Shown one piece after another: positions 7,160 to 25,924 of a stretch of 64,000 nucleotides of DNA; positions within the stretch are counted from its first letter, which is position 1; the number at the start of each line of letters is the position of its first letter. The stretch lies in the NCBI GenBank assembly GCA_000403255.2, contig KE159592.1, forward strand, positions 186,001 to 250,000, written 5' to 3'. The translations under genes and the position numbers were made by a program. The notes below the pieces were generated by a model that saw only the letters and a program-made list of their open reading frames with translations, did no database searches and was not told the origin of the DNA. The DNA comes from Lachnospiraceae bacterium 3-1. Its GTDB lineage: Bacteria; Bacillota; Clostridia; Lachnospirales; Lachnospiraceae.

Positions 7160-9670
7160 TTATTCAATGTCTTCATCTAATCTCTCTATTATTTCTTTTT
7201 TTTGCATGCGATTAAAACAAAGTACTGGAACACCTATTGCAATTAAAATTAATATTGGTGTTATTATGAGTAATGGAGTAATTGTAAAATTATAAGTTGC
7301 TGTCCATTTGGCTGATAAATATGCCTTTACTCCAGTATTAATTACCAAAAAACTCAGGAAATATGAAAGTAATAAAGAAATTAGCGCTACTCCAATTCCT
7401 TCAAAGATCAATAATAGCCGAAGTTGCTTTTTCGTCATTCCAATACTCTGCATCATAGCAAATTCCTTTTTTCGCATATTTACAGATGTCACAACCGCAT
7501 TTACCATATTAATAATTCCTATGAGAAAAATCATTCCGGCTACTATATTTGCAATCATCATAGATGCACTTGTTTCTTTCTTATATTCCTGTGCGATACT
7601 CTTTTCTGAAATCATTGGAATATTATTTCTTTCCACATACTCTTCCAAATAATCTTGTATATACTCTTTTTGAGAACTATCGACATTAAAAAATGCCCTT
7701 CGAACTGTATTATCTGGATACAATTCATTAAATTCACTATTTGGCATAAAGAACTGTAAACTAAATTCATATCCCGGATTTACTTTACCTTCTGTGACTG
7801 GATATGGAGCTGAAATAATTGCCATAACTTCATACTCTTTCCCTCCAATTTTTACCATATCTCCTACCGAATAAGTTGGATGCTCATATGCTGTCTCAAT
7901 GCCCTCCATTCCTTGCGCAAGTACATAGTCCCCTGAAAGGAATTTTTCCTTATCTACCTTCCCCTCCAACACAAGATTCTTTTCTGCTAACCTATCATTT
8001 ACAAGTCCATCCACACCAAAGACAGTTGCTGCACATTCATGCGTTTCTTTCATTTTATAATATCCTTCTGTCCAACCAATTGACTGTTCCATATATTTCA
8101 ATATTTCACCGTCATTTTGTTCATAATATCGAATAAGATTATCATATGTACGATCTGGTAACATAACTGAAATATTTTGAGAATATAATCTTCCCATTTC
8201 GTACACCCCTTCTAGCCCCATTATATTTTTCAATATATCTGGCGAAAGTGTTGTTCCTTTACAATCATATTCTTCCCATGAGTCTACTAAAGTACGCTCA
8301 GATAAAGTAAAATCACTAAGAGCTATTTCATCCATATAAAGCTCTAAATCGAAACTTTTGTGTATAACATAAATACTTCCCATAGAGACTATGCCAAGGA
8401 CCAGTAAAAATATCATTAAGATACTTTTTCGTTTATTTCTTCCTATATTATAAACAGCCATTTGAAATAATACTGGCAATCCAGGTATTCTTCTCTCAGA
8501 CTTTCCTTTAAAATATATATTATCTTCTTCACTTAGTAAATCAGAAGGATTAATCTTACCTGCAGTATGTGCTGGCTTAATTACCGCCATTACTACAATA
8601 AAGAATATCAATGCTAACGCTAACAAAAAGTCCTGCCATTCCATATATAATTGGGGCTGAACCTGTAGATTTTGAAACACAATAGGCAACAAAAATTTTG
8701 CCACAACAACTCCGACAATTAACCCAATTATTATCCCAGGTATGCACAATATCAAATTCTGCCACATTACCGACTTGCGAATTTGTTTTGGAGTTGCACC
8801 AAGAGTTTTTATTCTTGCATATAGTTTCATGTCTGTTACATATGATATATGAATAATACTATGCATAATTAATACTCCACTTATAAGTATTGCTATTACA
8901 CCAATCACATATGCTAAAGTATCCATCTTAATGCTTTGGCTGACTCCTTCGTTATATACCTCATTAATTTTGTAAGACATTTCTTCCATTTGAAGTGTTT
9001 GCAACATTTCCCTTGAAGACTCCTCAATATTTTTACTTTCAAACATTATTTCTACAGTTTGGGCGAGTTGCTGATAATCATTCACTATATCTTCTGATAC
9101 CCAAATTTTATGTTTAGAGGTTACTTTACTATTTTCCCATACTCCAACAATTTGAAAAGATTTTTTGACCTCTTCTTCGTTTTCTATCCACTTCAGCTCA
9201 ATGCTTTGTCCGATTCCATTTTCTATTCCAAAATCCTTCAAAACCATTGTATCTACGGCAATCTCATCTCTTGTTTCTGGCATCCGTCCTTGCTCAGGCT
9301 TGGCAAAAGTATATTCTGCATAGTTTTCATCCGCATATCTTATTTCTACAGTCTTTCCATGAAATTCTTGGTTTACGGCATTTCCTACTAATACACTTTT
9401 TCCCATTTCCTTCACTTCAGAATATGTTTTAAGTTTCTCTATATTCGAATCTGATAAATTGTCCATCCTAAGATGTCCCTTGCTTCCAAATTGCTGTAAA
9501 TAAAACGACTGGATATTATAATAAGCACTGGTTCCCAATACATTTAAAGCAACAATTCCTCCTACCAATAATGTCACTATAACTACAATTAGAATATTTC
9601 TTGACGGATGTTCCTTAATATTTCTTCTACTCAATCTTCTAATTGCAGTATCGCTTCTTCCTTTACTCAT
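7160..9670 (-). CDS. FtsX/MacB-type ABC transporter permease
   Basis: 836 aa. A transmembrane segment near residues 25-50 is followed by a large extracellular MacB-PCD-like domain, then a three-helix FtsX core (about 255-370). A second unit follows with one helix (about 415-440), an extracellular domain and three C-terminal helices with the typical MMQSIGMTKKQLRLLLIFEG motif. This is the LolCE/MacB architecture with two FtsX domains. Such permeases work with a MacB-like ATPase to extrude or sense peptides and lipoproteins. Start by AAGGAGA and ATG. It ends the third island operon behind the protease, third precursor and ATPase, so export of or immunity to the modified peptide is the likely job (inference). 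Confidence 0.85.
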   Translation of the reverse strand: MSKGRSDTAIRRLSRRNIKEHPSRNILIVVIVTLLVGGIVALNVLGTSAYYNIQSFYLQQFGSKGHLRMDNLSDSNIEKLKTYSEVKEMGKSVLVGNAVNQEFHGKTVEIRYADENYAEYTFAKPEQGRMPETRDEIAVDTMVLKDFGIENGIGQSIELKWIENEEEVKKSFQIVGVWENSKVTSKHKIWVSEDIVNDYQQLAQTVEIMFESKNIEESSREMLQTLQMEEMSYKINEVYNEGVSQSIKMDTLAYVIGVIAILISGVLIMHSIIHISYVTDMKLYARIKTLGATPKQIRKSVMWQNLILCIPGIIIGLIVGVVVAKFLLPIVFQNLQVQPQLYMEWQDFLLALALIFFIVVMAVIKPAHTAGKINPSDLLSEEDNIYFKGKSERRIPGLPVLFQMAVYNIGRNKRKSILMIFLLVLGIVSMGSIYVIHKSFDLELYMDEIALSDFTLSERTLVDSWEEYDCKGTTLSPDILKNIMGLEGVYEMGRLYSQNISVMLPDRTYDNLIRYYEQNDGEILKYMEQSIGWTEGYYKMKETHECAATVFGVDGLVNDRLAEKNLVLEGKVDKEKFLSGDYVLAQGMEGIETAYEHPTYSVGDMVKIGGKEYEVMAIISAPYPVTEGKVNPGYEFSLQFFMPNSEFNELYPDNTVRRAFFNVDSSQKEYIQDYLEEYVERNNIPMISEKSIAQEYKKETSASMMIANIVAGMIFLIGIINMVNAVVTSVNMRKKEFAMMQSIGMTKKQLRLLLIFEGIGVALISLLLSYFLSFLVINTGVKAYLSAKWTATYNFTITPLLIITPILILIAIGVPVLCFNRMQKKEIIERLDEDIE

Positions 9671-9682
9671 AATCCAGTCTCC

Positions 9683-10369
9683 TTAATTAATCTTCTCCAA
9701 TTTGCCATCTCGTAAATAAATTACTCGATCAGCCGCTTCTGCCAATTCTCTATCATGTGTTACCATAATTACTGTTTGATTAAACTCTTTACAAGTCATC
9801 TTCAACAGTCCCGCAACTTCCAACCCTGCACGAGTATCTAAATTGCCAGTGGGTTCATCCGCTAAGATAACCATTGGCTTTGTAGAAAGCGATCTCCCGA
9901 TGGATACCTTTTGCCGTTCTCCACTTGACAAATCTTTAGGAAACATTGTAAGTTTATCTTCTATCCCTAAAAGTCGAGTTATCTGCTTAATATATTCTCG
10001 ATCTGCTACACGTCCATCCAGTTCTAATGGAAGTATAATATTTTCATAAACATTTAAAACTGGGATTAAATTATACTGACGGAAAATCAAACCTACATTT
10101 CGCCTACGGAAAATAGACAAACTCTCATCATCAAAAATAGATAAGTCTGTACCATTAATTTGTACTTTCCCCTTATCAGGAGTACGTAATCCACCTATTA
10201 ACTGAAGAAATGTAGATTTTCCACTGCCTGACGGTCCTACAATAGCATGAAAGCCACGGTTAATATCTAGACTAATACCATCTATAGCTCTGATTTCATT
10301 TTGACCTCTTCCAAATGTTTTTACTAGATTTTCTGTATGTATAGTTCCCATTCGTCCGCTTCCTTCCAT
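9683..10369 (-). CDS. ABC transporter ATP-binding protein (MacB/LolD-like)
   Basis: 228 aa from the first ATG; an ATG six codons later (10351, MGTIHTENL) is equally plausible. Walker A GPSGSGKST, Q-loop FRQYNLIPVLN, signature LSSGERQKVSIGRSL, Walker B MVILADEPTGNLD and H-loop VTHD are all present. It supplies ATP hydrolysis to the FtsX-type permease that starts 13 bases downstream. It is directly behind the third precursor peptide gene (gap 7 bases), so peptide, ATPase and permease form one tight operon. The signature GER in place of GGQ is seen in some peptide-resistance ATPases. Substrate unknown. Confidence 0.9.
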   Translation of the reverse strand: MEGSGRMGTIHTENLVKTFGRGQNEIRAIDGISLDINRGFHAIVGPSGSGKSTFLQLIGGLRTPDKGKVQINGTDLSIFDDESLSIFRRRNVGLIFRQYNLIPVLNVYENIILPLELDGRVADREYIKQITRLLGIEDKLTMFPKDLSSGERQKVSIGRSLSTKPMVILADEPTGNLDTRAGLEVAGLLKMTCKEFNQTVIMVTHDRELAEAADRVIYLRDGKLEKIN

Positions 10370-10376
10370 TCTTTTC

Positions 10377-10568
10377 CTAACTCAGCACTGTCACCGTAGG
10401 CATCATAACCCGCCTAAAACATTCTGTACTACATCTTTGAGCATTCATTCCGGCACATGAAGCATATCCATCAATTTCCTCTGCCATAAAAAATTCATCA
10501 TTATCCAACTCTTCATCTATGTCAACTATAACCTCTGCTACTTCTTTCTTCTTTTTCTTCCAAATCAT
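10377..10568 (-). CDS. Third RiPP precursor candidate, 63-aa Cys-rich peptide
   Basis: A basic start (MIWKKKKK) leads into a strongly acidic segment, then EEIDGYASC, Cys-x7-Cys-x3-Cys (Cys38, 46, 50) and a short tail rich in hydroxyl and aliphatic residues ending TVTVLS. The stretch around the cysteines aligns with the two 55-aa precursors at the other end of the island: ESVEGYGYC with Cys-x6-Cys-x3-Cys against EEIDGYASC with Cys-x7-Cys-x3-Cys. This shared acidic leader, Gly-Tyr and Cys spacing argues for a common precursor family. GGGAG precedes the ATG. It lies between the subtilisin-like protease and the MacB-type ABC genes. It could also serve as a signalling peptide; function is inferred from context. 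Confidence 0.72.
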   Translation of the reverse strand: MIWKKKKKEVAEVIVDIDEELDNDEFFMAEEIDGYASCAGMNAQRCSTECFRRVMMPTVTVLS

Positions 10569-10591: not shown

Positions 10592-11671
10592 TTATTTATA
10601 TATACTTTTTATATAGCCGCCCTCATGGGTCAATTTCATTCTCTCAATTGTATTCACAATGGGAAATACTGTTACAATTTCAACTTGTTCCCTTAGCAAA
10701 ATCGCTATCAGCAAATCTAAAAACTCTTTATTCTCGTGAATAAATTGATTACTTAATGCACCAATATAAAATACATCTGTTCCTTGAATTGTTTGCATAA
10801 TTTCTACTTCTGATTTTTGATAAATATCTTTAAAACACAATTTTGCATCATTTACTTCTTTATATATTGCATAAATCTGCATATTATTTAAATCCATATC
10901 ATCCGCAAAAAATAACATCTTCTTATCATCCAAAGAATGTTGTTCTTTTATATCATACTTGTCAAAATATATTCGGGATATATTCTCTGACTTACTAAAT
11001 TGAATTAAAAAGTCCATAAACGCTAAAGTACTCTCTTTGCATATCTCTCTTCCCTCTATAAATTTGCAGAAGATTCCTACAAGTAATGGACAAAGATAAC
11101 TATTCCCTCGTCGAATAATACACTTCGCTAAATCTGGCACATATACCATATTATCAGAGAATTCTACAATTCTGTCTTCATAACTTACTTTACAAAATGC
11201 TTCTGAATCTTCTGGAGTAGTTACTCCTAGTACATTAGAGAAATTTGCCGGATATGACTTTTTTCCTGCAATATTGTGATCGGCAGCAAAAATAATAATT
11301 CCTTTCTTGACTGCTTCATCACAAACCTTTTTCAATTCTTCCAATCTGCTTGCTGTTGATGAACAACTTCCTAAACTTAAATTAATGATATCTACCCTTT
11401 TATCTATACAATATTTTATAGAATTGATAATTGCAGATAACATACACTTATTATTTTCCTGCAATGTCCTGATCGAAAGTATCTTAATATCTGGAGATTC
11501 TTTCAGTATGATCTTGATCACTTCTGTACCATGAGGATTCAGTTTTCCCACATAACAGGTTTTGAACTCACGTTCTTCATAGTATAAATTCTGTATTTCT
11601 GCCTCTTTTAAGTATTCATCATCTTTATCTACCCCTGAATCTATGACCGCTACTAATAATTTCCTTTTCAT
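10592..11671 (-). CDS. Subtilisin-like (S8) serine protease, cytoplasmic, RiPP-associated
   Basis: 359 aa from the ATG of MKRKLLVAVIDSG. Catalytic Asp11 (IDSG), His47 (PHGTE) and Ser191 (RRGNSYLCPLL) are present, and AADHN with Asn133 matches the oxyanion-hole position. The Ser motif is G-N-S rather than the usual G-T-S. There is no signal peptide or propeptide, so it should act in the cytoplasm. About 140 C-terminal residues (after roughly 220) have no recognised domain. Proteases of this family cut leader peptides in some lanthipeptide and other RiPP clusters. Being immediately upstream of the third precursor gene, leader removal is the best guess. Other roles such as receptor or signal processing cannot be excluded. 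Confidence 0.82.
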   Translation of the reverse strand: MKRKLLVAVIDSGVDKDDEYLKEAEIQNLYYEEREFKTCYVGKLNPHGTEVIKIILKESPDIKILSIRTLQENNKCMLSAIINSIKYCIDKRVDIINLSLGSCSSTASRLEELKKVCDEAVKKGIIIFAADHNIAGKKSYPANFSNVLGVTTPEDSEAFCKVSYEDRIVEFSDNMVYVPDLAKCIIRRGNSYLCPLLVGIFCKFIEGREICKESTLAFMDFLIQFSKSENISRIYFDKYDIKEQHSLDDKKMLFFADDMDLNNMQIYAIYKEVNDAKLCFKDIYQKSEVEIMQTIQGTDVFYIGALSNQFIHENKEFLDLLIAILLREQVEIVTVFPIVNTIERMKLTHEGGYIKSIYK

Positions 11672-11699: not shown

Positions 11700-11912
11700 C
11701 TATTTTTTAAGCAATACCGCACAGTCCAATTCTGCTTTTGTTGTTATCTTCTCCATAGCCAGAGCAATTCCTGTATTAATTGCCGTTTCGCACGCCACTC
11801 TGCTTTCGGGATCCTGTTTCAAACATTCATCCAAAATTGCATCTGAAATCTGATCACAAACTTTATCTTCATGACCTGCAGTTACTGATCCTGATGTAAA
11901 TAATCTCCTCAT
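11700..11912 (-). pseudogene. metK: Truncated S-adenosylmethionine synthetase N-terminus (metK fragment)
   Basis: 70 codons from an ATG with AGAGGAG in front. [25 protein letters not shown]-type sequence matches the opening of MetK, normally about 390 aa, but in place of the conserved GHPDK it has GHEDK and the Glu of SES/TEG is lost. Similarity continues to about residue 60 ([14 protein letters not shown]) and the frame then stops. It is the first gene of the third island operon, immediately behind a putative LytTR-controlled promoter, and 28 bases ahead of the protease start. It cannot be an active SAM synthetase. Either it is a leftover from recombination at a metK gene or a retained small domain; the intact ribosome site and frame leave the second option open. 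Confidence 0.75.
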
Positions 11913-11953
11913 ATGATTCACTCCTCTTTAGATGAATTATTTTTGATATTGTT

Positions 11954-12800: not shown

Positions 12801-12818
12801 CGCCGCTAACGCATTACA

Positions 12819-13074: not shown

Positions 13075-13236
13075 TCAAATCCTCTTTTTTGAATTCATGA
13101 TCTCTTCCTTCAACTTTCCATCAACTACTGGCTGATACATGCGTCCTTGACAACATTGCGAAATGCTTGTCAAAGCCATCATAAAAATCAAATTAGATAA
13201 TATCTCCACACATATATTCATAAATTTATTCTTCAT
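13075..13236 (-). CDS. agrD: AgrD-type cyclic autoinducer peptide precursor
   Basis: 53 aa. An N-terminal amphipathic/hydrophobic helix (about residues 4-25, FMNICVEILSNLIFMMAL) is followed by SISQCCQGRMYQP and an acidic C-terminal part VVDGKLKEE. The layout equals clostridial AgrD peptides, where Cys-x3-x is followed by [HY]-Gln-Pro. The predicted autoinducer ring is Cys29-Gln-Gly-Arg-Met33 as a thiolactone, with an unusual second Cys just outside it. CGGAGGTAAGG stands in front of the ATG. It lies downstream of the agrC-like gene in the same orientation, separated by a transposase relic; the operon otherwise lacks an agrD. AgrB would process it at the membrane. Function is predicted from family pattern and context. 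Confidence 0.82.
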   Translation of the reverse strand: MKNKFMNICVEILSNLIFMMALTSISQCCQGRMYQPVVDGKLKEEIMNSKKRI

Positions 13237-13560: not shown

Positions 13561-14868
13561 TTACAGATGCGGAGAGACTTCATATTCTCCTTTTGAATCA
13601 TCTGAAATTGGAATAATAATACTGATCATAAATTCATTATCTTGAGCAACAATAGATAAATGTCCATTATAAACTTGTATAACTCTTTTTACATTAACAA
13701 GTCCATATCCATGAAATGCTTTATTATTTTTAGTAGTTTTTATTGTATTATCAAAATACCTCATACTATTCTTAATTACTATAGACTGAAAATCTCCTTT
13801 ATATTGACTTTTAAAAATAATGTACCTCTCTTCAATATCCACCTTTTCACAAGCTTCAATAGCATTATCTAATAAATTACCAAATAGAGTAGTTATCTCT
13901 AGTGGTTGCATAAAAGAACCCTTTGAAAAGTCTACATTACATTCTATCGTGATCCCTAATTCTTCTGCTTTACTAATTTTATCTGCTAAAATTATATTTA
14001 AAAAAATATTTCCAGTTTCATAATATGAACCGTATTTTTTAAGTTTTTCACTAATTGTTTTATCAATTGCTGAACTTTCAGTTACTAAAAAGAAATTTTT
14101 CAAATCATGATAAATCTCTTTTATTTTTTCCTCTTCTTCCAAACGTTTTAGATAATATTCATTTTTCATTTCAAGTTGACTTAAGGCTATTTCCTCCTCT
14201 CGCTTTTTTCTCTGTGTTAAAACATAGTGGTTAGTAAAAATTACATTGCTTATAAATGCCATCAGTATACATACAATACATATTATAATCATAATTTTAT
14301 ACCTTGTTTTTCCTACTTGTGGCATAATAAGATACAAACATTCTAAAACTACTACAAAAGAAAAAGAAAGGATAATAATAGGCAAGCCGTCTTTAAATTT
14401 TTCTATTCCTTTAATGTTACTAATTATTTTTTCAACTACAAAAGAAAAGAAAAGTAGCAATGCTTTTGCCATCAATATTACACTTAAAGTAAATTCAAAT
14501 GCATTATTTAATGATGTTGTAGATGCATATACAGTTCTTCCCACCAAATCCCAACTTTGAATCGCTATTATTTCACTTATATCTAATAGAAAAAGATAAA
14601 TCACTCCATATATAAATAAGTTTTTAACATTACACTTGTAATATAATTCCCCAATTAAAACAACTACTATTTCAAATATGAGAAACTTAACCCATACATC
14701 CAAGTTTAAATATGTACAAAATGATGCTTGACTAACAATAATAATATAAAAACAAACTTTTTTTATTCTTGATTTTTCTTCTTCATTTGAAAGTAACAGA
14801 AAAAAACACCATGTCTCAAAGCAAGTAATAAGACTATCGAATAATATTTCATACAGCTTGACTATCAT
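13561..14868 (-). CDS. agrC: AgrC-like sensor histidine kinase (GHKL)
   Basis: 435 aa. Six or seven hydrophobic helices occupy about residues 5-215, followed by a coiled linker (QRKKREEEIALSQLEM), the H-box YHDLKN (histidine near 250), the N-box NLLDNAIEAC and the G-box HGYGLVNVKRV of a GHKL ATPase. This is the AgrC/ComD class that binds cyclic peptide pheromones at the membrane. The start ATG overlaps the stop of the response regulator, indicating translational coupling. With AgrB, AgrD and the LytTR regulator it makes a complete agr-type circuit. The sequence is AT-rich compared with the core genome. Confidence 0.88.
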   Translation of the reverse strand: MIVKLYEILFDSLITCFETWCFFLLLSNEEEKSRIKKVCFYIIIVSQASFCTYLNLDVWVKFLIFEIVVVLIGELYYKCNVKNLFIYGVIYLFLLDISEIIAIQSWDLVGRTVYASTTSLNNAFEFTLSVILMAKALLLFFSFVVEKIISNIKGIEKFKDGLPIIILSFSFVVVLECLYLIMPQVGKTRYKIMIIICIVCILMAFISNVIFTNHYVLTQRKKREEEIALSQLEMKNEYYLKRLEEEEKIKEIYHDLKNFFLVTESSAIDKTISEKLKKYGSYYETGNIFLNIILADKISKAEELGITIECNVDFSKGSFMQPLEITTLFGNLLDNAIEACEKVDIEERYIIFKSQYKGDFQSIVIKNSMRYFDNTIKTTKNNKAFHGYGLVNVKRVIQVYNGHLSIVAQDNEFMISIIIPISDDSKGEYEVSPHL

Positions 14869-16523: not shown

Positions 16524-16988
16524 TTATTCCTTTTTCCAATCCAAAACAACACTCTCCTGGCGTCCATCCGGGAAAACATATGTAAATCTACTTTCCTCAT
16601 CATGACAAATATAAAAAAAAGATCTCTCAGTGCCTAAATGATATCTATATTTTTCTTTTGATCCCTCTGCGAACAATGTGAAATATTCAAAACACCCGTT
16701 CTGTTCAATCTGAAGATTTTTCATTTGAGTTTCCAATATCTGATAAATATGTTCCTCTTTTAGTTCACTTTCCCTAATCTGTTTAAAACGGAAAAGCTTT
16801 TTATCTCGATTGCTGTTTAACATCCTCTCTAAATATTTTGTATATTCCGAAGGCATAATGCTCGTCGCTGCAATCTCTATCTGTTTGCTTGGGGACTCTT
16901 TAATTTTCTGTAGAAGTAACCGGAGAATTTCTGGCGAGATTATAATAAAGTCAGTTGTTCCTACAATGCTTAATTTATACTCTTTCAA
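16524..16988 (-). CDS. Unknown 154-aa protein, last gene of the RiPP operon
   Basis: I do not recognise this protein. It is soluble-looking, charged, without signal peptide or membrane helix. The N-terminal half (ISPEILRLLLQKIKESP) is helical and basic; the C-terminal half has alternating aromatic strands (CFEYFTLFAEGS, SFFYICHDEESRFTYVFPDGR). It has two cysteines and no evident metal or catalytic motif. It starts 39 bases after the third radical SAM gene and ends just before the operon terminator, so it is co-transcribed with the precursors and maturases. A precursor-recognition or immunity role is possible, but nothing in the sequence proves it. Confidence 0.7.
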   Translation of the reverse strand: MKEYKLSIVGTTDFIIISPEILRLLLQKIKESPSKQIEIAATSIMPSEYTKYLERMLNSNRDKKLFRFKQIRESELKEEHIYQILETQMKNLQIEQNGCFEYFTLFAEGSKEKYRYHLGTERSFFYICHDEESRFTYVFPDGRQESVVLDWKKE

Positions 16989-17026: not shown

Positions 17027-18313
17027 CTATACAGTTCTTATTCCTGCTAAAATTTCTTCAATGTATGTTGCTAAAAACTGTAAATTTTCTTTCTTACTTT
17101 TTTTACTATCATAATAAAACATACAATATTGCAACAACGCTCTTCTTGACAAGCACTTACTGTCAACATTTTCCGGTACTCCACCATTTTCAGCAACCTC
17201 TGCTGCACAAGGTCCTGAACAAAAATATTTTGCCCAGCAGTTTTCACACATTTTAATCTTGTCCACACAGAACTTCTCTTCTAACTCTGGACTCTCTGTT
17301 TTATTTCGCAAATCCTCACAAAGTTCTTTCATGGTCTGTTTCCTGACATTTCCCATAGAGAACTGCTTATCCTTAAAATTCGCACACATAAACGTATTTC
17401 CGTCCGGGTGAATTGCCAGCACATTTCCGAAAGCTCCACAACTTCGTTGCGGTTGAATGTCTCCTGAATAATTACTGGTAAGTCCTTCATCAAAATACTC
17501 TTTCTTCAGCAAATAGCGGATAATTTTTAACTGGATTTTTAATGTATTATGCTCTTTCAATAATTTATCACTGACATTATTTTGTTTCGCACGTCCTACT
17601 AATGTAATAATTCTTGTTGTAAAAACAGCATGATATTTATGGCAAACCTCAATAGCTTCTTCTAAATGTTTCTCGCTATTTTGATCCACGACAAAGGACA
17701 ATGATAATAATACACCAGTCTCATTTGCTGTCGTAAATATTTCCTCCATTCTCGACAGTAATTTTTTATCATCAAAAATATTTTCTATGCTGATTTCCAG
17801 CACTCCAATTTTATCTGCCAAGCCTCTCACCAACTCTGGGTTTAATAATAAACCATTGGTCTGAAGTACGATACGCTGCTTATCGAATGCCATTGCCAAT
17901 ACATCCAAAACCTCTCCTATATCCCTTCGCATTAATGGCTCTCCGCCAGTAATAACAATTTTTCGTGGATTTATTTCTTGCAATTTAGGAATCAACATAT
18001 CTTTGATTTCATTAGCAGTCAAATCATTCTTAGTGCTTACATATGGGCTAGAATTCATCGTGCAGAACTCACACTGTAGATTGCAACGTCCTGTCACAGC
18101 AAAATAAACGCTCTTACGCATGAAATCTTTTTCTTCATTCAAAAGACCATATTTATTCTCAACATATTTTTCAAGCGCCTCCCTATTCTTCTCAGAATAA
18201 CAGAATCGATCATAAGTGTCTTTCTTCATTCTTACCCAATGTCCATTCTTTACATTTAAAAGAATCACTTTCCCATTTCCCTCTTTTACAATCAAGTCAT
18301 CTAATGTAAGCAT
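17027..18313 (-). CDS. Radical SAM/SPASM peptide maturase with N-terminal recognition-like domain
   Basis: 428 aa. About 75 N-terminal residues (VILLNVKNGHWVRMKKDTYDRF...) look like a PqqD/RRE-type peptide-recognition segment. The radical SAM core follows with TGRCNLQCEFC (CxxxCxxC for the [4Fe-4S] cluster and SAM) and TGGEPLMRRD. The C-terminal SPASM region has CGAFGNVLAIHPDGNTFMC, then FCVDKIKMCENCWAKYFCSG, then a final CxxxR. Such enzymes install thioether, C-C or other crosslinks in RiPPs. GGAGGTATGTGAG precedes the ATG. The gap to the second radical SAM gene is 14 bases. It is the only one of the three maturases with a clear N-terminal extension. Confidence 0.88.
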   Translation of the reverse strand: MLTLDDLIVKEGNGKVILLNVKNGHWVRMKKDTYDRFCYSEKNREALEKYVENKYGLLNEEKDFMRKSVYFAVTGRCNLQCEFCTMNSSPYVSTKNDLTANEIKDMLIPKLQEINPRKIVITGGEPLMRRDIGEVLDVLAMAFDKQRIVLQTNGLLLNPELVRGLADKIGVLEISIENIFDDKKLLSRMEEIFTTANETGVLLSLSFVVDQNSEKHLEEAIEVCHKYHAVFTTRIITLVGRAKQNNVSDKLLKEHNTLKIQLKIIRYLLKKEYFDEGLTSNYSGDIQPQRSCGAFGNVLAIHPDGNTFMCANFKDKQFSMGNVRKQTMKELCEDLRNKTESPELEEKFCVDKIKMCENCWAKYFCSGPCAAEVAENGGVPENVDSKCLSRRALLQYCMFYYDSKKSKKENLQFLATYIEEILAGIRTV

Positions 18314-18327: not shown

Positions 18328-19416
18328 TTACATAATCAAATGTTTTATAATCTCTTCATGTTCTTTATATACTTGATACATTAATTTTCGCATCCTACAA
18401 AAGATAGGTGCTGGTTTATTTTTATCTCCCGTAACAGCCAAATTTTGCATAATGCAAGAACGCTCTACACAATAGGATGCAATACTACAATTCTGACAGG
18501 TTATATTCTCAATTCCATCAAATTCTCTTAATTCTTGTATTTTTTTCTTCTGAAGCCCGGCATCTAAACTACCTAATTTTACAGATTTATCTAAATTCCC
18601 CGGACATGCAAAAATGGAACCATCCGTTCGGATATATGCGGAAATAATTCCCGCACCACAACAATAGAATTTATCTTTTGCAGTATTTCTCGAAGGTTCT
18701 CTGAATTTTACAACTTTTTCTGCAAACTCCCAATAAAATCCTTTTTGTTGTTTTGCACATTCAAGAAAATACTCAAAGGATTTTTTTATTTGCTCTGCCA
18801 GAATATCCATTTCCGCTTCAGTCCATGATAAACTCAAATCAATGGCTGTATCAATCATTTTAAATCCTAAATTCTGGGTCAAATAAATCAATGTGTCATA
18901 ATAACTTTCATAATTATTCTGTGTAATTACATTTGTTACCTGAACATGTCTCCCAGTTCTTTCTTCAAACTGATGTACATAATGCAAATTTTCAAGAATT
19001 TTATCATGCACACTATAACCACTCCATGAAATTCGGTTTCGATCATTTACTTCTTTATCTCCGTCTATACTTACTTTTAGAGTAAATGAATTTTCAATCA
19101 AAAAATCAATAATATCTTGCGTGAAAATGGTAGCATTTGTAGTAACAGAAAAAAGTAATTCATAGCTGTACTCCGCATTTTTTTCTTTTATATAATTGAC
19201 CATATTTTTTATCATTTCGAAATCTAAGAAAGCCTCTCCACCTACAAAATCAATCCAAAGCTTACAATCTTTGTGTTGTCTTGTTTTTATAAAAGCCATA
19301 TCTACTGCTTTCTGTGCGGTTTGAATATCCATCTTTGCACCACTTTTTTCTCCTAAATAGCAGTACTTACATTTCAAATTACATTTCTGATTAATCTCTA
19401 ATGTCAAACTGTACAT
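18328..19416 (-). CDS. Radical SAM/SPASM peptide maturase
   Basis: 362 aa. The protein opens directly on the core, with LEINQKCNLKCKYCYLG, VGGEAFLDFEM in the SAM-binding position and SIDGDKEVNDRNR typical of SPASM peptide maturases. The C-terminal auxiliary-cluster region has FYCCGAG, IRTDGSIFACPG, then ITCQNCSIASYCVERSC and a last Cys in PIFCRMRK. AGAGGAG precedes the ATG. No N-terminal recognition domain is visible, so it may rely on a partner protein for substrate binding. It is downstream of the BceAB-like pair in the precursor operon. The exact reaction (sactionine, ranthionine or C-C link) cannot be read from sequence. Confidence 0.88.
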   Translation of the reverse strand: MYSLTLEINQKCNLKCKYCYLGEKSGAKMDIQTAQKAVDMAFIKTRQHKDCKLWIDFVGGEAFLDFEMIKNMVNYIKEKNAEYSYELLFSVTTNATIFTQDIIDFLIENSFTLKVSIDGDKEVNDRNRISWSGYSVHDKILENLHYVHQFEERTGRHVQVTNVITQNNYESYYDTLIYLTQNLGFKMIDTAIDLSLSWTEAEMDILAEQIKKSFEYFLECAKQQKGFYWEFAEKVVKFREPSRNTAKDKFYCCGAGIISAYIRTDGSIFACPGNLDKSVKLGSLDAGLQKKKIQELREFDGIENITCQNCSIASYCVERSCIMQNLAVTGDKNKPAPIFCRMRKLMYQVYKEHEEIIKHLIM

Positions 19417-19499: not shown

Positions 19500-21617
19500 T
19501 TATTTAATTCCAACAATATGCTTTACTTCCTTTAATGAGATATGGTATCCAATATACTGATATACTCCCACAAACAGGCAAAGCAATAAATCTAACATTG
19601 CTGCTTTTACTTCATATGCATGAAATACTCCATCATTTTGTAAATATGTCGTACACTGATACGAATAAATAATGCCAATACCAATAAGCGTTGGGAATGC
19701 GTAAATCTTTTTCAATTGTCCTTTTACACATCGTAAAATATAACTATTGTCTGCGCCTAACTTCCGAATATCATCATACACCTGCTTATTACTTAAGCCA
19801 ATTGTTTGACTCCTTGTATAACCGATAATGCCAACTGATGCAAGCATCACAATTGCCACAAAAGTAAATAGTAAAAACTGAATTGCATATTGTAGTAACA
19901 TATTTTTCTGGAATAATATTTTGAAATACGGTTCATACTTCCAATTCAAGTCTAATTCTGGATGTTTTGGCTCTAACTCAATATGCTCACCATCATAATA
20001 CTCTTCACCTGCTGATAATGCTTTTTTCTCCAAATAAGCATCATAGAACAATAACACTTTCATATCATCACTGGCTATATTACAATATTGCTCATATAGC
20101 TGCTTGGAAAAATCGTAAGATTTCTCTAAGTCATCCACATTAAAAAGTATTTGTCGAATCACATGTTCTGTTGAAATTCCCTCTGCTAATGCAGAATAAT
20201 CCTCTTCACTGATTACAAATCTGGCAAAATTATCCCATCCATTTTCCACAATGAGTTCATTAAACACTACTGTCCCTGAATAGACTAGTTCTTTTTGCAC
20301 CCCTGTATTTTCATTCATGACAAAATCAAGATCATCAAATGCAAAGAATATGGTTTCATCCATTTCCGTTGAACGAATCATCTGATAAGTCCCTTCTTTA
20401 ATATCAATATCCGTTCCCATTGCTTCATTCAGCTCTCTATCACTGATAAACTGACGATAATACGCCTGCTGTTCATATTTTTCTACAATCTTCCCATTGT
20501 TGTCCACATTATCACGATTAATTGCGCTAGACAATAACTCAATAAATGGAAGCTCAAGATAATTTTGAACAGTTATTCCAAACTCTTCGGCTAATGATAT
20601 AATCTCGGCTTCATCCAATCCAACCACATTCTCTGGTATACGATATGAAACATCCGCGGAATTTTTCTCCGCCAAGTTTTGGCCTTCCATTATATTTGTT
20701 GGCAAATAAAATGCTGCAAACAAAGCCCCCATCACCAAAAGAACAATAAGCCCCATATTTCTGACCATGGAAATTCCTTGAAATTTTAACATTCCATACG
20801 AAATAATATTCCTATAATATTTTTGTGGATTCCTACCTCGCCGATGAACTACAATAGAATAAACTAAAATCCTATAAATTCCAATAATACACAATCCATA
20901 AAACAAGTTAAACAAACCACTCAGATATTGTTTAAACATATTAGCCCACAATGTCGGAAGCACATATGCCATAAAAATACCAAATACAAGCAAGCTAACT
21001 CCCGACACAAAATATTTCCCTGTAACCTTTTTTTTGATTGGTTCACATTTTCTCTGTTCATTGATAATATCCATTATGTTAGATCGTCGCATAAAAGAAA
21101 AAGTCATTATCAAAATGCAGAAAAATATACAAATAGAAAAGATAATTGCATATAGCATTCCTATCATCGATACCATAAAAGTTAACCCATCAGGTGCAAC
21201 TCCAATCATTTCCATTACTTTTCCAATACACAAAGCCAACAGGTTTCCAATAACTATACCTGTAATAGCTGCACTGCCTCCTATCGAAAACACTTCTCTT
21301 AATAAAGCACTAGACAGCCGTTTTTTTTCTGTTCCCAACGCCAGAAATACACCAATTTCTTTGCTTTTATACCGAAGAAATAGCCCCATTGCATAAAGAA
21401 CAAAAATAAAACATCCTATCACTGCAATACCAAAAATCAAATATATCTGTTTTCTGGAATCTCCGCCCTCTGGCAATGCTGTCTGTATAAAATCACTAAA
21501 CAACACTCCGAAAAAAGAGGCAACTAACAAATTTGCAAATGCAATACACATCCAAAGTTGTTTATACTGTTTTCTATTTACTTTTCGTAATTTTTTTAAT
21601 AGATTAGTCAACGTCAT
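19500..21617 (-). CDS. BceB-like FtsX-domain ABC permease
   Basis: About 705 aa from the ATG of MTLTNLLKKL; two ATGs up to 15 bases upstream (21632) are alternatives. Ten helices are apparent: four N-terminal, a pair near 205-260, one near 290, and three C-terminal. A large extracellular domain (about 310-585) separates the last two groups. LGTEKKRLSSALLREV is the FtsX coupling motif. This matches bacitracin-exporter-type (BceB/VraG) permeases that sense or remove antimicrobial peptides. It overlaps the end of its ATPase gene. In a bacteriocin-like operon the expected role is producer self-protection, or export. Substrate is inferred only from context. Confidence 0.82.
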   Translation of the reverse strand: MTLTNLLKKLRKVNRKQYKQLWMCIAFANLLVASFFGVLFSDFIQTALPEGGDSRKQIYLIFGIAVIGCFIFVLYAMGLFLRYKSKEIGVFLALGTEKKRLSSALLREVFSIGGSAAITGIVIGNLLALCIGKVMEMIGVAPDGLTFMVSMIGMLYAIIFSICIFFCILIMTFSFMRRSNIMDIINEQRKCEPIKKKVTGKYFVSGVSLLVFGIFMAYVLPTLWANMFKQYLSGLFNLFYGLCIIGIYRILVYSIVVHRRGRNPQKYYRNIISYGMLKFQGISMVRNMGLIVLLVMGALFAAFYLPTNIMEGQNLAEKNSADVSYRIPENVVGLDEAEIISLAEEFGITVQNYLELPFIELLSSAINRDNVDNNGKIVEKYEQQAYYRQFISDRELNEAMGTDIDIKEGTYQMIRSTEMDETIFFAFDDLDFVMNENTGVQKELVYSGTVVFNELIVENGWDNFARFVISEEDYSALAEGISTEHVIRQILFNVDDLEKSYDFSKQLYEQYCNIASDDMKVLLFYDAYLEKKALSAGEEYYDGEHIELEPKHPELDLNWKYEPYFKILFQKNMLLQYAIQFLLFTFVAIVMLASVGIIGYTRSQTIGLSNKQVYDDIRKLGADNSYILRCVKGQLKKIYAFPTLIGIGIIYSYQCTTYLQNDGVFHAYEVKAAMLDLLLCLFVGVYQYIGYHISLKEVKHIVGIK

Positions 21618-22362
21618 TTCCATCACCACCATTCAAGTCTTTAAAGATATTTAACAACTGATCCAAAAATACTTTCCGGTTTCCTCTGTTTTTCATTTCT
21701 TTATGAATCTGGCCATCTTTCATTACAATCACCCGGTCACAATAACTAGCAGAAATACTGTCATGTGTAACCATAAAAATAGTAGCTTGTAACTGTTTCT
21801 TTGCTTCAATAAATGCTTGAATCACAGCTTCGCTCGAACGGCTGTCTAAGTTTCCGGTTGGTTCATCTGCAAGAATAATAAGCGGGTCATTCATCAAAGA
21901 ACGCGCTACTGCCGTTCGCTGACGCTGCCCTCCTGAAATTTCTGCCGGATATTTCTTTGCAATTCTTTCTATATCAAACATCTGAAGCAATTTTTTTGCT
22001 TTTGCTTCCATTGGTTTATATGGTGATTCCTGAATTACCTTTGGCACACACACATTTTCAAACACAGTTAGTCCATCCAAAAGCATAAAATCTTGAAATA
22101 CAAAACCCAGTCTTTTATTTCTAACCTCTGCAATTTCTTTTTCTGCAAGATTGGTTAAGTTAATTCCATCCAAAGTGATCTTACCACTATCATAAGGAAT
22201 GAATGACGAAATGCAATTTAAAAGTGTAGATTTTCCACTTCCGGATGGACCCATAATAGCCACGAATTCTCCTTTTTGGATTTCAAAAGATACATTTTTT
22301 AAGGTATGATAAACCTCATTCCCGTTTTTGTAACTCTGACATAAATTTTTTACGCTTAACAT
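21604..22362 (-). CDS. BceA-like ABC transporter ATPase
   Basis: 252 aa from the ATG of MLSVKNLCQSY, which has AAAGGG 7 bases upstream; the upstream ATG overlapping the previous stop (22383) is a coupled alternative. Walker A GPSGSGKST, Q-loop VFQDFMLLDG, signature ISGGQRQRTAVARSL, Walker B LIILADEPTGNLD and H-loop VTHD are intact. It belongs to the MacB/LolD/BceA class. It is coupled to the permease downstream, and the two probably form a peptide-detoxification or export unit for the modified peptide. A C-terminal extension (about residues 222-252) is longer than in MacB-type ATPases. Confidence 0.9.
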   Translation of the reverse strand: MLSVKNLCQSYKNGNEVYHTLKNVSFEIQKGEFVAIMGPSGSGKSTLLNCISSFIPYDSGKITLDGINLTNLAEKEIAEVRNKRLGFVFQDFMLLDGLTVFENVCVPKVIQESPYKPMEAKAKKLLQMFDIERIAKKYPAEISGGQRQRTAVARSLMNDPLIILADEPTGNLDSRSSEAVIQAFIEAKKQLQATIFMVTHDSISASYCDRVIVMKDGQIHKEMKNRGNRKVFLDQLLNIFKDLNGGDGNDVD

Positions 22363-22382
22363 TTTAAATCCCTTTCTTTCCA

Positions 22383-24056
22383 TTAATACGCACTTGCAAG
22401 ATTATCTGTTGCAACTGGATATACCTTTTTGTTTTTTACTCCAAAAATATAATCAAATTGCTCACATTCCTCAATATTATGAGTAATACAAACAATAATC
22501 TTATCCCTTTTTTCCTTTTGCAAAATATCAAACAGTTTTTTCCGTCTCTCCAAATCAATGGATGCCGTACTTTCATCAAAAATCAATACATCAGATTCTC
22601 TTAATAATGCCCTTAATACATCTAATCGCTTCTTTTGACCACCTGAAAGATTACTTGTGCCTGAATTCAATTGTGTCTCCCACTGTTCAGGTAGTTTCAT
22701 TACATCATCATATATATCTAACAACCTGCTCAACTCAATCACTCTGGATTTAGAAACACTTTTTCCCATTTCCAAATTCTCCATTATAGTTCCTTGATAA
22801 AACAACGAGTCTTGTGCTACAAACCCTATCCTTTTTCTTAAACTGGTTAGTAAAATGTTCTGAATCGGTCTTCCGTCAATATAAATCTCTCCAGCTGCCG
22901 GCATATATAACCCAAGAAGCATCTTTACCAACGTAGATTTTCCACATCCACTTCCGCCAATAAAACCATAGATATTTCCTCTTTTTAATTCTACATTCAC
23001 ATCATGTAAAATCTCATCAGATTTCAAATATCTGAATGCTGTATTTAAAAACTCTATTTTTTCAATTGACTTCTCAATTGCACTTCCTTCTTCCTTTTCT
23101 TCTTCGTACTCTAATACCTGCAAAAGACGTTTCATTGCAATCAATGTACTTTGATAACTGTTATTAAATTCAGTAAAAAAAATAAGTGGCGCAACCAACA
23201 TGCACTGATAATTAATAAGCGCTGTTACTGTTCCTATCGTTAGGCCTCTTTCAAATATTTCAATTCCTCCAATCATCCATATTGCAAGTGTTAGAAGATA
23301 ATTCAACAAACTTCCAGAATTAATATTGATAGAATAAGTTAATTCCAACGCAATTTGTGATTTGTACTGCTTCATATATACATGTTCAAATTTCTTGCAA
23401 GCAGCTTCGTATGACGCATAAAGTTTTGTGATTAAAACGTTTTTATAATTTTCACTCAGTACACCAATTGCCTCTTCATTTTTTTCCATACTTCGTTCTG
23501 CAAATCGTTTTACACGTCCACCCCAAAATTTATTGTTGATCATATATACTGCTAATAAAACAACTGTAATTATCATAATCCTCCATTCCAATTTGACGAT
23601 CATTACGGTTGCCATTAGAAACGTAATAATATTGCTTACTGTCTTAACTAACATAAATCCGCAATTTTCTTTAATAGTCTCTACTTCGCGACTGTATTTC
23701 GATACAATTTCATTCAAACTATGATCATCATAATAAGAATATTTCATTACTGATAACTTCCTGTTCAAGTCCATCCTAATGTCCATAGATATATTTTCAG
23801 CAATTCTCGCAAGGAAAAAATCTTTTAATACATTTAAGATAACAGCAGCAATGTAACACCCAAACATAATGCCAATAACTATCCAAAATCTTTTTATATT
23901 TTGTTTTGGAAATACTACATCTAATAAATCTTGATAAGTCAAAGGGATACACATTGTAATTAGACTCTGTAAAACAACTGTCACTAATACAAATACAAAA
24001 TAAATCTTTTGTTCAAAGATATATTTCTTCATAAAATACCTATATACCTTATCCAT
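22383..24056 (-). CDS. ABC exporter with fused membrane and ATPase domains
   Basis: 557 aa. An N-terminal six-helix ABC type-1 transmembrane domain (about 15-300) is followed by the nucleotide-binding domain with Walker A GGSGCGKST, Q-loop FVAQDSLFYQ, signature NLSGGQKKRLDVLRAL, Walker B VLIFDESTASID and H-loop CITHN. There is no N-terminal C39 peptidase domain, so unlike bacteriocin PCATs it would not remove the leader itself. It lies directly downstream of the first radical SAM gene and most likely exports the matured peptide. AAAGGAAATC precedes the ATG. Very AT-rich codon use, as in the rest of the island. Confidence 0.9.
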   Translation of the reverse strand: MDKVYRYFMKKYIFEQKIYFVFVLVTVVLQSLITMCIPLTYQDLLDVVFPKQNIKRFWIVIGIMFGCYIAAVILNVLKDFFLARIAENISMDIRMDLNRKLSVMKYSYYDDHSLNEIVSKYSREVETIKENCGFMLVKTVSNIITFLMATVMIVKLEWRIMIITVVLLAVYMINNKFWGGRVKRFAERSMEKNEEAIGVLSENYKNVLITKLYASYEAACKKFEHVYMKQYKSQIALELTYSININSGSLLNYLLTLAIWMIGGIEIFERGLTIGTVTALINYQCMLVAPLIFFTEFNNSYQSTLIAMKRLLQVLEYEEEKEEGSAIEKSIEKIEFLNTAFRYLKSDEILHDVNVELKRGNIYGFIGGSGCGKSTLVKMLLGLYMPAAGEIYIDGRPIQNILLTSLRKRIGFVAQDSLFYQGTIMENLEMGKSVSKSRVIELSRLLDIYDDVMKLPEQWETQLNSGTSNLSGGQKKRLDVLRALLRESDVLIFDESTASIDLERRKKLFDILQKEKRDKIIVCITHNIEECEQFDYIFGVKNKKVYPVATDNLASAY

Positions 24057-24080: not shown

Positions 24081-25238
24081 TTATATACTCACCTGCTCTA
24101 CTTCACAGATGATAGTTTTCATAATTTTACTCAATTCTATTTTCTGGTCCCTCGCAATCTGTAAATATCGCATCAGACGCATATCTTTTCTTGCATACAT
24201 TTGCTTATATACATTCAAATTATGTTTATATAAAATACGTTCTCTTTTACATGTTTGTTCACTATGAACATTCAATTTACCAGTCTTTACATAATTACAA
24301 AATCCACATTTTGCGCCACTGCAAGTAAAAGCAATATCACATTCATGACAAAATGCTTTAGGTGCCACATGCCCCCTTGCAGACTCTAAAAATTTCTTAC
24401 GATTTAATCCTGTTCTTACAGTTCCAAGATTCCATACCTCGTCATTTACTACATATCCACAAGGAAATAGTTCTCCACTACTATTAATTGTCAGATGTCC
24501 TGCTGATCCACCTGAACAATATTGAGGTATAGAAGCTGCAACAAATGTTCCAATCTTGTAGTCATGAAGATTTAAAGTGGCATCTTTTTCCCTACAAATT
24601 ACATCTAAATAAAATTGATCCATTTTATACATCTGTTCATCCAATATTTTCAATCCTTGCTTGGTCCATTCGCCCATATTATCAATGCCAAGATGAAATT
24701 TATGAATACCCATATGATAAAAATATTGAAGATTTTCATACAAAAATTCTACGTTATTTTCTGTTACTGTCATTCTTACAGAAAATGACAATTGCATTTT
24801 TTGCATTAAACGCATATTTTCTATAATATTGTCATACACGTCCACTCCATTTTTGCTTTTACGATTCAAATTATGCGTTCTCTTATCCCCATCAATACTA
24901 ATAGAGACATCCACATTATATTTTTTGAAAAGCTCAATCACGTCTGCATCTAATAAAACACCATTAGTTGTTATATGAAATTCAAAATTTTTCTTGCTTT
25001 CTGGATATTTTTGATTTATAATATCCATACATTCATAAATTAATTTTTTGTTAAGAAGAGGTTCGCCACCCAGAAAAGTGAGATCGAGTTTTTCACCTTC
25101 TGGATTGTGTTGAACTATAAAATCAATTGCAGTTTTCAAATCATCACTGCTTAGTATTTTTTTTCGTTTATCATCACCTTCATAACAGTAACTGCATTTC
25201 AAATTGCAGTTTTCTGTTAAATATAAAGTACATTCCAA
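24081..25238 (-). CDS. Radical SAM/SPASM peptide maturase next to the precursor genes
   Basis: 385 aa from a TTG that has AAAGGAG 9 bases upstream, giving an N-terminus close to the core, as in the second maturase. Motifs: LTENCNLKCSYCYEG, FLGGEPLLNKK, SISIDGDKRTHNLNR. The SPASM region has YCSGGSAGHLTINSSGELF and CGYV, then AFCHECDIAFTCSGAKCGFC and a last Cys in QTCKRER. It is the first maturase behind the tandem precursor genes and so the prime candidate for acting on them. Upstream in the same frame the sequence stays open for 43 more codons to a TGA, and could encode a longer N-terminus from a non-ATG codon. See the small frame at 25345-25449. Confidence 0.86.
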   Translation of the reverse strand: MECTLYLTENCNLKCSYCYEGDDKRKKILSSDDLKTAIDFIVQHNPEGEKLDLTFLGGEPLLNKKLIYECMDIINQKYPESKKNFEFHITTNGVLLDADVIELFKKYNVDVSISIDGDKRTHNLNRKSKNGVDVYDNIIENMRLMQKMQLSFSVRMTVTENNVEFLYENLQYFYHMGIHKFHLGIDNMGEWTKQGLKILDEQMYKMDQFYLDVICREKDATLNLHDYKIGTFVAASIPQYCSGGSAGHLTINSSGELFPCGYVVNDEVWNLGTVRTGLNRKKFLESARGHVAPKAFCHECDIAFTCSGAKCGFCNYVKTGKLNVHSEQTCKRERILYKHNLNVYKQMYARKDMRLMRYLQIARDQKIELSKIMKTIICEVEQVSI

Positions 25239-25467: not shown

Positions 25468-25635
25468 TTAATTAATGTGGGAAATTGCCGGACCGCCAAA
25501 TACGCAGTCATTTAAGCATTTCTGTTTGTGAGTTGTGCAATAACCATAGCCTTCTACACTCTCATCATCTTCCTTTTCATTTCCTGATTCTGGTCTTTCA
25601 CCATTTCCTTTTTTGAATTCTTTTGTTTCGCTCAT
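25468..25635 (-). CDS. Cys-rich RiPP precursor, copy B
   Basis: 55 aa, soluble, with a strongly charged acidic leader (residues 1-27, many Glu, Lys, Gly and Asn) and a core that begins near VEGYGYC. Cysteines at 33, 40 and 44 (Cys-x6-Cys-x3-Cys) are followed by VFGGPAISHIN. It is identical to copy A except for Val45 in place of Ala45. AGGAGG lies 8 bases before the ATG. The next full gene on this strand is a radical SAM/SPASM maturase, which is the standard arrangement for thioether-type RiPPs such as sactipeptides and ranthipeptides. No double-glycine leader is present; the protease in the third operon may cut the leader. The chemical structure of the product is unknown. Confidence 0.82.
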   Translation of the reverse strand: MSETKEFKKGNGERPESGNEKEDDESVEGYGYCTTHKQKCLNDCVFGGPAISHIN

Positions 25636-25653
25636 ATCTTTTCCTCCTGTCTT

Positions 25654-25821
25654 TTAATTAATGTGGGAAATTGCCGGACCGCCAAATGCGCAGTCATTTA
25701 AGCATTTCTGTTTGTGAGTTGTGCAATAACCATAGCCTTCTACACTCTCATCATCTTCCTTTTCATTTCCTGATTCTGGTCTTTCACCATTTCCTTTTTT
25801 GAATTCTTTTGTTTCGCTCAT
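25654..25821 (-). CDS. Cys-rich RiPP precursor, copy A
   Basis: 55 aa and the first gene of the long island operon. The leader is acidic and Gly/Asn/Glu-rich and the core reads GYGYC, then Cys40 and CLNDCAFGGP with Cys at 33, 40 and 44, ending AISHIN. Copy B downstream is a tandem duplicate with a single substitution (Ala45 here, Val45 there), so the cell would make a two-variant mixture, as some two-component or microheterogeneous bacteriocins do. AGGAGG precedes the ATG. A LytTR-type promoter lies about 40-105 bases upstream, which ties expression to the agr circuit. Related to the 63-aa peptide at 10377-10568 in acidic leader, Gly-Tyr and Cys spacing. Confidence 0.83.
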   Translation of the reverse strand: MSETKEFKKGNGERPESGNEKEDDESVEGYGYCTTHKQKCLNDCAFGGPAISHIN

Positions 25822-25860
25822 ATCTTTTCCTCCTCTCTGCCTTTGGCTTTCGTTAATATT

Positions 25861-25924
25861 AAAATATCACTTACTTACTTTCTTGTATACACCAATTGCC
25901 TAATCTACTCTCTACATTGCCTAA
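25861..25924 (-). promoter_or_regulatory. LytTR-type operator and promoter of the precursor/maturase operon
   Basis: On the minus strand two identical TTAGGCAAT repeats (25916-25924 and 25895-25903) are separated by exactly 12 bases, followed by 28 bases and TATTTT (25861-25866). This is the best copy of the three island operators. Between 25925 and 26072 nothing else is recognisable. Confidence 0.75.

Follow-up and report, generated by a model that had tools for sequence, protein, structure and literature searches.

Does the AT-rich block of genes beside comEC in Lachnospiraceae bacterium 3-1 make a modified peptide, and is that peptide under the control of cell density? The block lies in a 64,000-nucleotide stretch of contig KE159592.1 (assembly GCA_000403255.2, positions 186,001 to 250,000, hereafter the window), and the original prediction, made from the sequence alone, had read it as a quorum-sensing-controlled system for a ribosomally synthesized and post-translationally modified peptide (RiPP) in three transcription units. 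We conclude that this is very likely a RiPP locus and that its first unit is likely quorum-controlled. As a whole, the best explanation is that the RiPP locus was acquired horizontally and is under quorum control, a view that we hold with fair confidence and in which crosslink chemistry, leader cleavage, immunity and activity are predicted by analogy with known systems.

A probable RiPP gene set in three units

Delimited by gene spacing, the genes form three units. The first runs from two 55-residue precursors through the radical S-adenosylmethionine (SAM) enzyme rSAM-A, an ABC exporter and a BceAB-like pair to rSAM-B, rSAM-C and a 154-residue protein. The second holds AgrB, a LytTR regulator and an AgrC-like kinase, followed after about 325 bp by a probable agrD. 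The third, preceded by a truncated metK and by mobile-element debris (read by eye), holds an S8 protease, a 63-residue precursor and a MacB-like pair. Open reading frame (ORF) and domain searches agreed with the predicted genes and their places, agrD being probable only; all island genes lie on the minus strand, and every biosynthetic ORF is uninterrupted. The features of the first and third units are as follows.

25654..25821, minus: 55-residue precursor, copy 1 (tandem repeat, alignment, leave-window-out profile)
25468..25635, minus: 55-residue precursor, copy 2 (tandem repeat, alignment, leave-window-out profile)
24081..25238, minus: rSAM-A, radical SAM/SPASM maturase (TTG start proposed; family models, alignment, tree)
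22383..24056, minus: ABC exporter, membrane and ATPase domains (domain search)
21604..22383, minus: BceA-like ABC ATPase (ABC_tran 2e-36)
19500..21632, minus: BceB-like FtsX permease (FtsX 2.7e-9; BceB likeness from layout)
18328..19416, minus: rSAM-B, radical SAM/SPASM maturase (PapB model 7e-59, QhpD model 8e-43, both below cut-off; tree)
17027..18313, minus: rSAM-C, radical SAM/SPASM maturase with extra N-terminal domain (domain search, alignment, predicted structure)
16524..16988, minus: 154-residue protein, family unassigned (no significant family match)
11700..11921, minus: truncated metK, S-AdoMet synthetase N-terminus, 73 residues (PF00438 1e-25)
10592..11671, minus: S8 subtilisin-like protease, QhpE-like, probable leader peptidase; ORF opens at 11722 (NF049966 1.4e-27, below cut-off)
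10377..10568, minus: 63-residue precursor, divergent member, core GYASCAGMNAQRCSTEC (E 0.007, profile without window sequences)
9683..10369, minus: MacB/LolD-type ABC ATPase (family search)
7160..9670, minus: MacB-like FtsX permease, probable self-protection or export (FtsX 7.5e-29, MacB_PCD 1.2e-6)

The RiPP reading is strongly supported by co-occurrence. Precursor, rSAM-A, rSAM-B, rSAM-C, exporter and S8 protease were found together in all seven clusters of a selected sample, counted from six genomes with the window's cluster included. The six further clusters lie on contig C2 of the same genome, in a genome of the same genus (G023), in one of another genus of the family (G396), and in Anaerocolumna sp. 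AGMB13025, Paenibacillus bouchesdurhonensis and Blautia massiliensis GD8. A MacB-type pair accompanies six of the seven, with none seen in the Blautia stretch read.

The precursor family

The precursors have the features of RiPP substrates: short genes, a variable core and conserved features, beside tailoring enzymes. The two 55-residue ORFs belong to a tandem duplication of 186 bp; their DNA is 99% identical and their products differ at one residue. Across 17 aligned precursors one Tyr and three Cys are invariant, and the residue before the last shared Cys is Asp (Glu in the 63-residue member); the shared plan is a leader with an acidic stretch at its end and a core with Y, C, C and [D/E]C. 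Every precursor carries C-x2-[DE], which fits Cys-Asp/Glu linking of the QhpD/PapB type. When a profile of the 14 non-window sequences was run on the 1857 stop-to-stop stretches of the window, its top three places were 25471-25653 (E 4e-11), 25657-25866 (9e-11) and 10380-10595 (0.007), the next best being 2.6, and the last of the three is the 63-residue precursor, recovered only weakly.

The full profile, which includes its own members, was run across eight genomes and gave 20 places at E <1e-12, found in all six cluster-bearing genomes and in neither of the two without a cluster hit (own genome 7, G023 7, G396 2, Blautia 2, Anaerocolumna 1, Paenibacillus 1). Seventeen of these are profile members, the others being C2:60966, C32:47677 and C4:26908, and we regard three further places at E 0.025 to 0.45 as chance. 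The original prediction had not recognized the precursors as a described family, and this agrees with the scans: no NCBIfam model matched five of the 17 up to E 10, and Pfam gave just two matches to the scanned precursors (E 0.06-0.08), below cut-off. The proposal of two kinds of precursor location also gained support, in that the single precursor of the Paenibacillus cluster (L071) sits between S8 and MacB, the position of the window's 63-residue ORF.

Predicted maturation, cleavage and export

The CX3CX2C motif and the SPASM cysteines are invariant in the alignments of rSAM-A, rSAM-B and rSAM-C, with a Pfam SPASM match for rSAM-C. The best-scoring model for rSAM-A and rSAM-B was PapB (NF047865, cut-off 340 bits), at 219.9 and 199.6 bits, and on the QhpD model (TIGR03906, cut-off 453 bits) they reached 144.1 and 146.8 bits. 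A maximum-likelihood tree was built from 45 radical SAM proteins, 21 of them outgroup and PapB itself left out. In it rSAM-A and rSAM-B are sister clades (99/98), with a long-branched Clostridia sequence (L074) beside rSAM-A. The two clades group with QhpD plus a single nif11-type enzyme, at 90/99, a support below the level that the tool stars; SCIFF maturases fall elsewhere, and rSAM-C is a separate lineage. Labels were checked for 10 of the 21 outgroup proteins: four lie over the QhpD cut-off (601-644 bits) and one is QhpD-like below it; three lie over the SCIFF cut-off, one of these scoring higher on a ScfB-related orphan model; one is nearest nif11, below cut-off, and one matches PapB alone, below cut-off.

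The start of rSAM-A had been placed at 25340, and here we depart from that annotation: translation most likely begins at TTG 25238, because homologues at L070 and L071 have a Met codon there and AAAGGAG stands just upstream. A frameshift in rSAM-A, suggested by a 34-residue ORF upstream, was rejected, the two homologues carrying Met at the proposed TTG. Whether rSAM-C has a RiPP recognition element at its N-terminus was asked by comparing folds: the predicted structure has a strand-strand-strand-helix-helix arrangement at residues 8-55 (mean pLDDT only 64.5), and the top Foldseek matches were SkfB, 5why (which we take to be CteB) and SuiB; yet most VIA rows align from about residue 64.

The QhpE model (NF049966) matched all five S8 proteins (best E 3e-28) and was the top model for those of the window and of C2, the two with full lists inspected; the window's protein scored 96.5 bits, below the cut-off of 165. 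D, H, N and S are invariant across the S8 proteins and presumably have the catalytic roles. The protease gene stands apart from the maturases in the window and in Paenibacillus, and not in C2, G023, G396 or Blautia. In the exporter the domain search found membrane and ATPase domains only, with no peptidase domain. ABC pairs of the FtsX type are often self-protection devices against peptides.

These parts recall the maturation of quinohemoprotein amine dehydrogenase (QHNDH), in which QhpD forms Cys-to-Asp/Glu thioethers on QhpC, QhpE, acting in the cytoplasm, removes a leader of 28 residues, and the product leaves through QhpF, as described in PMC7876137. Both have a SPASM maturase of the same branch, a leader peptidase whose best family is QhpE, an ABC exporter and a small substrate with a leader, and the processing logic resembles QhpDEF because two of the radical SAM enzymes group with QhpD in the tree. 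Unlike QHNDH maturation, the island and its sisters have Gram-positive hosts, two to three maturases, short and often multicopy precursors and FtsX-type ABC pairs. Ranthipeptides (PapB/freyrasin, SCIFF/CteB, Tte1186) offer a second comparison: PapB links Cys-Xn-Asp with n of 0-6 (PMC9413430), rSAM-A and rSAM-B score best on its model, and core Cys have a nearby Asp/Glu in both; the island precursors, in contrast, have no CX3D array, are not six-Cys SCIFF peptides and come with a dedicated S8 protease. We read the locus as working like a QhpDEF line that would feed a bacteriocin-like peptide, and by the curated cut-offs its proteins are not members of QhpD, QhpE or PapB.

The agr module and its operator

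The quorum-sensing module and the operators that would tie it to the precursors consist of the following features.

25895..25924, minus: operator TTAGGCAAT-N12-TTAGGCAAT before the precursors (repeat and genome pattern scans)
16259..16288, minus: operator TTAGGCGAT-N12-TTAGGTGAT before agrB (repeat and genome pattern scans)
15553..16194, minus: AgrB (PF04647 E 5e-32; one of 4 in the genome)
14865..15575, minus: LytTR response regulator, AgrA-like (LytTR 1e-19, Response_reg 9e-19)
13561..14868, minus: AgrC-like GHKL histidine kinase (HATPase_c_5 6e-23)
13075..13236, minus: probable agrD, 53 residues, contains SISQCCQGRMYQPVVDGKL (TIGR04223 E 0.0015; GGAGG before start)

AgrB scored 111 bits against a PF04647 cut-off of 23, the regulator combines receiver and LytTR domains, the kinase has a GHKL domain, and the ORF at 13075-13236 is probably agrD. 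Like known agr systems (AgrBDCA), the module pairs AgrB and an AgrD-like peptide with a GHKL kinase and a LytTR regulator and has a paired operator before agrB; unlike them, its order is B-A-C-(debris)-D and it appears to drive a RiPP operon.

Evidence for that drive comes from the operator. A 30-bp direct repeat with a 21-bp period occurs twice in the window, before agrB and before the precursors, and in none of 100 window shuffles. The pattern TTAGGYRAT-N12-TTAGGYRAT, with at most one mismatch, was found only at those two places in the 5.08-Mb genome (reversed-pattern control, 0); a longer operator pattern that allowed two mismatches brought one further place, itself with two mismatches, against 3 in its control. 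Typical LytTR sites are 9-bp direct repeats 12 bp apart (PMC6193735), and the island sites fit this layout with repeat letters that differ from those tabulated in that paper; we infer that the regulator binds them. The original prediction of a shared operator in front of each unit stood for agrB and for the precursors and failed for the protease unit, before which there is no third copy. Agr control is well supported for the first unit only.

We also looked for the operator in related loci. The relaxed form TTA-N2-CAA(A/T)-N12-TTA-N2-CAA(A/T), sought on both strands of 264 kb comprising the window and related loci, occurs at four places (reversed pattern, 0). Each of these places lies upstream of a first precursor, that of the window, that of Anaerocolumna or, twice, that of Paenibacillus; in these three it stands 103-114 bp before the precursor. 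A still looser form gave nine places, four of them elsewhere, against 3 in the control, and half-site scans showed no convincing operator before a precursor in the C2, G023, G396 and Blautia loci.

The window's cluster is the only one with agr genes inside it. In the five other cluster genomes, searched for AgrB, an agr module was near the cluster in Anaerocolumna alone; the G023 cluster is near contig ends, and agr adjacency may extend beyond them. In Anaerocolumna, about 14 kb separate the precursor from a kinase, agrB, an AgrD-like ORF and a LytTR regulator that shares 40% identity with that of the window, a proximity that could be chance because that genome has six AgrB. The quorum control that had been predicted is supported for two units, whose paired operator is unique in the genome, and not for the third. 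Agr is no general part of the system; it seems to have been added locally to a rare RiPP cassette. Between the Anaerocolumna agr module and RiPP cluster lies another RiPP-like locus (L199:707-4047), sactipeptide-like by eye, with a radical SAM gene beside an M16-peptidase-like gene. Quorum control of radical SAM RiPPs is also found in streptococci, where Rgg/SHP systems use the cytoplasmic receptor Rgg instead of agr/LytTR.

Insertion at comEC

The AT-rich island spans about 19 kb between comEC (26103-28523) and a group of ahpC, thioredoxin and holA (4249-6514). Its GC content is 0.30-0.35 per 2-kb bin against about 0.38-0.44 in the flanking bins, in agreement with the AT-rich block described before, and its limits reach beyond the earlier 7160..25924 to an imperfect direct repeat.

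26070..26112, no strand: 43-bp imperfect direct repeat, right copy (contains the last codons of comEC)
6944..6986, no strand: 43-bp imperfect direct repeat, left copy (95% identical to 26070-26112; island boundary; junction inspected)

A comEC match was obtained in 27 relatives of the genus. Five of them have a 67-residue plus-strand ORF near comEC (four of these with ahpC as well), holA adjoins comEC in 18, and four have neither the ORF nor holA inside the approximately 1.5 kb of comEC flank fetched. By this comparison the block is an island, with its insertion point at the 3' end of comEC, and its horizontal acquisition forms part of the best explanation given at the outset. The window's own 67-residue ORF (6702-6902, plus strand), outside the island, has three DDTTC..I.DMNC-like repeats and no protein family. 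It was rejected as a fourth precursor, being 82-88% conserved near comEC in five of the 27 relatives and outside the island.

No integrase was seen among the island ORFs read, with no profile search aimed at integrases. The debris at about 12000-13400, between agrC and the S8 unit, resembles, when read by eye, the end of an IS110 transposase and a group II intron protein. Carriage by a plasmid or a virus was considered and rejected: the island has no near DNA match on plasmids, where rSAM-C reached at most 28% among eight listed of 31 plasmid records, and two viral loci matched weakly, at 22-24%. A scan for promoters gave 95 sites (shuffle mean 95.2) and one for terminators gave 7 (shuffle mean 5.9).

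Distribution and sister clusters

The set of precursor, three enzymes, exporter and protease is rare. The precursor profile matched one genome of 391 in the class and rSAM-C one of 398 in the phylum (the organism's own both times). The S8 profile matched 2 of 397 family genomes at E <1e-60 and, at 1e-20, 17, of which the additional ones are probably ordinary subtilases; in the genus the count was 2 of 29. Of 76 outgroup loci, 22 had an S8 match together with an exporter match, and a first contig scan with rSAM-A as query gave no matches. The 154-residue protein had no homologue beyond the window's own copies among the loci compared at that stage. In a search of openly licensed papers, judged mostly by listing and without the 2022 radical SAM RiPP atlas, we did not recognize this combination of genes.

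Copies of metK stand beside four of the seven clusters: C2 (G000:C2:64584) and Blautia (G450:C4:32092) have an additional gene at a distance of 3.5 to 5 kb, the gene is truncated in the window (11700-11921) and in G023 (G023:C23:64147), and there is none near the G396, Anaerocolumna and Paenibacillus clusters. Such copies would fit a need for more SAM, which all three enzymes consume. Because the metK fragment lies directly before the S8 gene, unit 3 may be transcribed from a captured promoter; no riboswitch before the fragment matched Rfam at the gathering score in the window, L009 or L010.

Two loci were left uncounted. One is a more distant cousin in G396 (L035; G396:C1:3535000-3554000), with S8, an exporter, two radical SAM genes and a 57-residue candidate precursor containing CDNDC; the other is G023 contig L202, where a precursor, a B-type enzyme and regulators stand alone before the contig end. 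Four sister clusters also encode a zinc-dependent, putatively secreted phospholipase C-like protein (L010:782-1624, L033:7072-7971, L070:14133-14990, L072:6544-7395), for which PF00882 was tested on the C2 copy and which was not seen in the window island. A second cluster adjacent to that of Blautia (L200:15134-18768) has a radical SAM gene, an ABC gene and an 86-residue peptide with Cys at short regular intervals.

Proposed mechanism and rival explanations

We propose that AgrB matures AgrD into a cyclic signal and that at high density the AgrC-like kinase would activate the LytTR regulator, which would bind the two 9-bp direct repeats, 12 bp apart, that precede both agrB, giving positive feedback, and the precursor operon. 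The three maturases would then install side-chain crosslinks, most likely, to judge by their kinship, Cys-to-carbon thioethers like those of QhpD/PapB, a cytoplasmic QhpE-like S8 protease would remove the leader, and the product would be secreted by the peptidase-less ABC exporter, with the MacB- and BceAB-like pairs protecting the producer. The unit of protease, 63-residue precursor and MacB pair may be expressed independently of the agr operator. Three cysteines and three enzymes invite a model of one bond each, which is a guess because only a B-type enzyme stands beside the precursor in the first Blautia unit and in contig L202. On a bolder reading the locus would represent an undescribed Gram-positive RiPP class that turns QHNDH logic to a secreted tricysteine peptide, with one crosslink per invariant Cys made by three enzymes, captured here by agr through operator sharing; we put this forward tentatively, as possible and short of likely.

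Several observations weigh against a quorum-controlled RiPP system. On the regulatory side, the agrD candidate is probable and not certain because it reaches 18.7 bits against a TIGR04223 cut-off of 19, and it lies beyond the transposon debris; unit 3 has no operator copy; the relaxed operator consensus was drawn after three of its sites were known; and the Paenibacillus operator rests on position, because 62 of 200 shuffles of the 21-kb L071 reach its score with the window-only matrix. On the biosynthetic side, rSAM-A, rSAM-B and the S8 protein all fall under the curated cut-offs of PapB, QhpD and QhpE, rSAM-C matches no Pfam family of RiPP recognition elements, and the window's three precursors lack the Trp that follows the last shared Cys in 11 of the 14 others. 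The shared gene set is also partly selected for, because clusters were chosen by similarity to the maturases or S8.

The product might instead be a secreted signal or cofactor-like peptide, a crosslinked scaffold like QhpC serving communication or redox chemistry, with the ABC pairs used for export or sensing. We consider this unlikely, given that FtsX-type pairs, often devices of self-protection, accompany six of the seven clusters and that the precursors are multiplied and divergent (seven strong matches each in G023 and in the own genome), as in bacteriocin arsenals. QHNDH alpha and beta subunits (QhpA/QhpB) were not noticed among the ORFs of the loci, with no search aimed at them. What favors such a product is that rSAM-A, rSAM-B and the S8 protein are closest to QHNDH maturation proteins among those compared, together with the link between SCIFF ranthipeptides and quorum sensing in clostridia (PMC8102284).

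Two further explanations, both improbable, start from the mobile elements. The debris at about 12000-13400 and the metK fragment beside S8 could mean that the locus is decaying, with the protease unit split off from the maturases, unlike in C2, G023, G396 and Blautia, and little or no mature peptide made. However, the biosynthetic ORFs are uninterrupted, the S8 protein keeps D, H, N and S, all three maturases keep the radical SAM and SPASM cysteines, and the Paenibacillus S8 is likewise separate. Slightly less probable again is an insertion accident that made agr and the RiPP cassette neighbors, agr regulating itself and something else: the agr genes do lie beside debris and are absent from most sister clusters, and the third unit has no operator, but the genome's sole two operator copies precede agrB and the precursors, and the repeat unit, the spacing of 12 bp and the distance from the start codon match. 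We retain the horizontally acquired, quorum-controlled RiPP locus as the best explanation.

Such a locus links the maturation of a quinone-enzyme subunit in Gram-negative bacteria with bacteriocin-like peptides of gut and soil Firmicutes, and it defines a precursor family that the searched copies of Pfam and NCBIfam do not cover and that the profile matched strongly at 20 places in six genomes. It offers a compact system for studying the sharing of one small substrate among several radical SAM enzymes, and its two-site operator makes density sensing testable by mutation.

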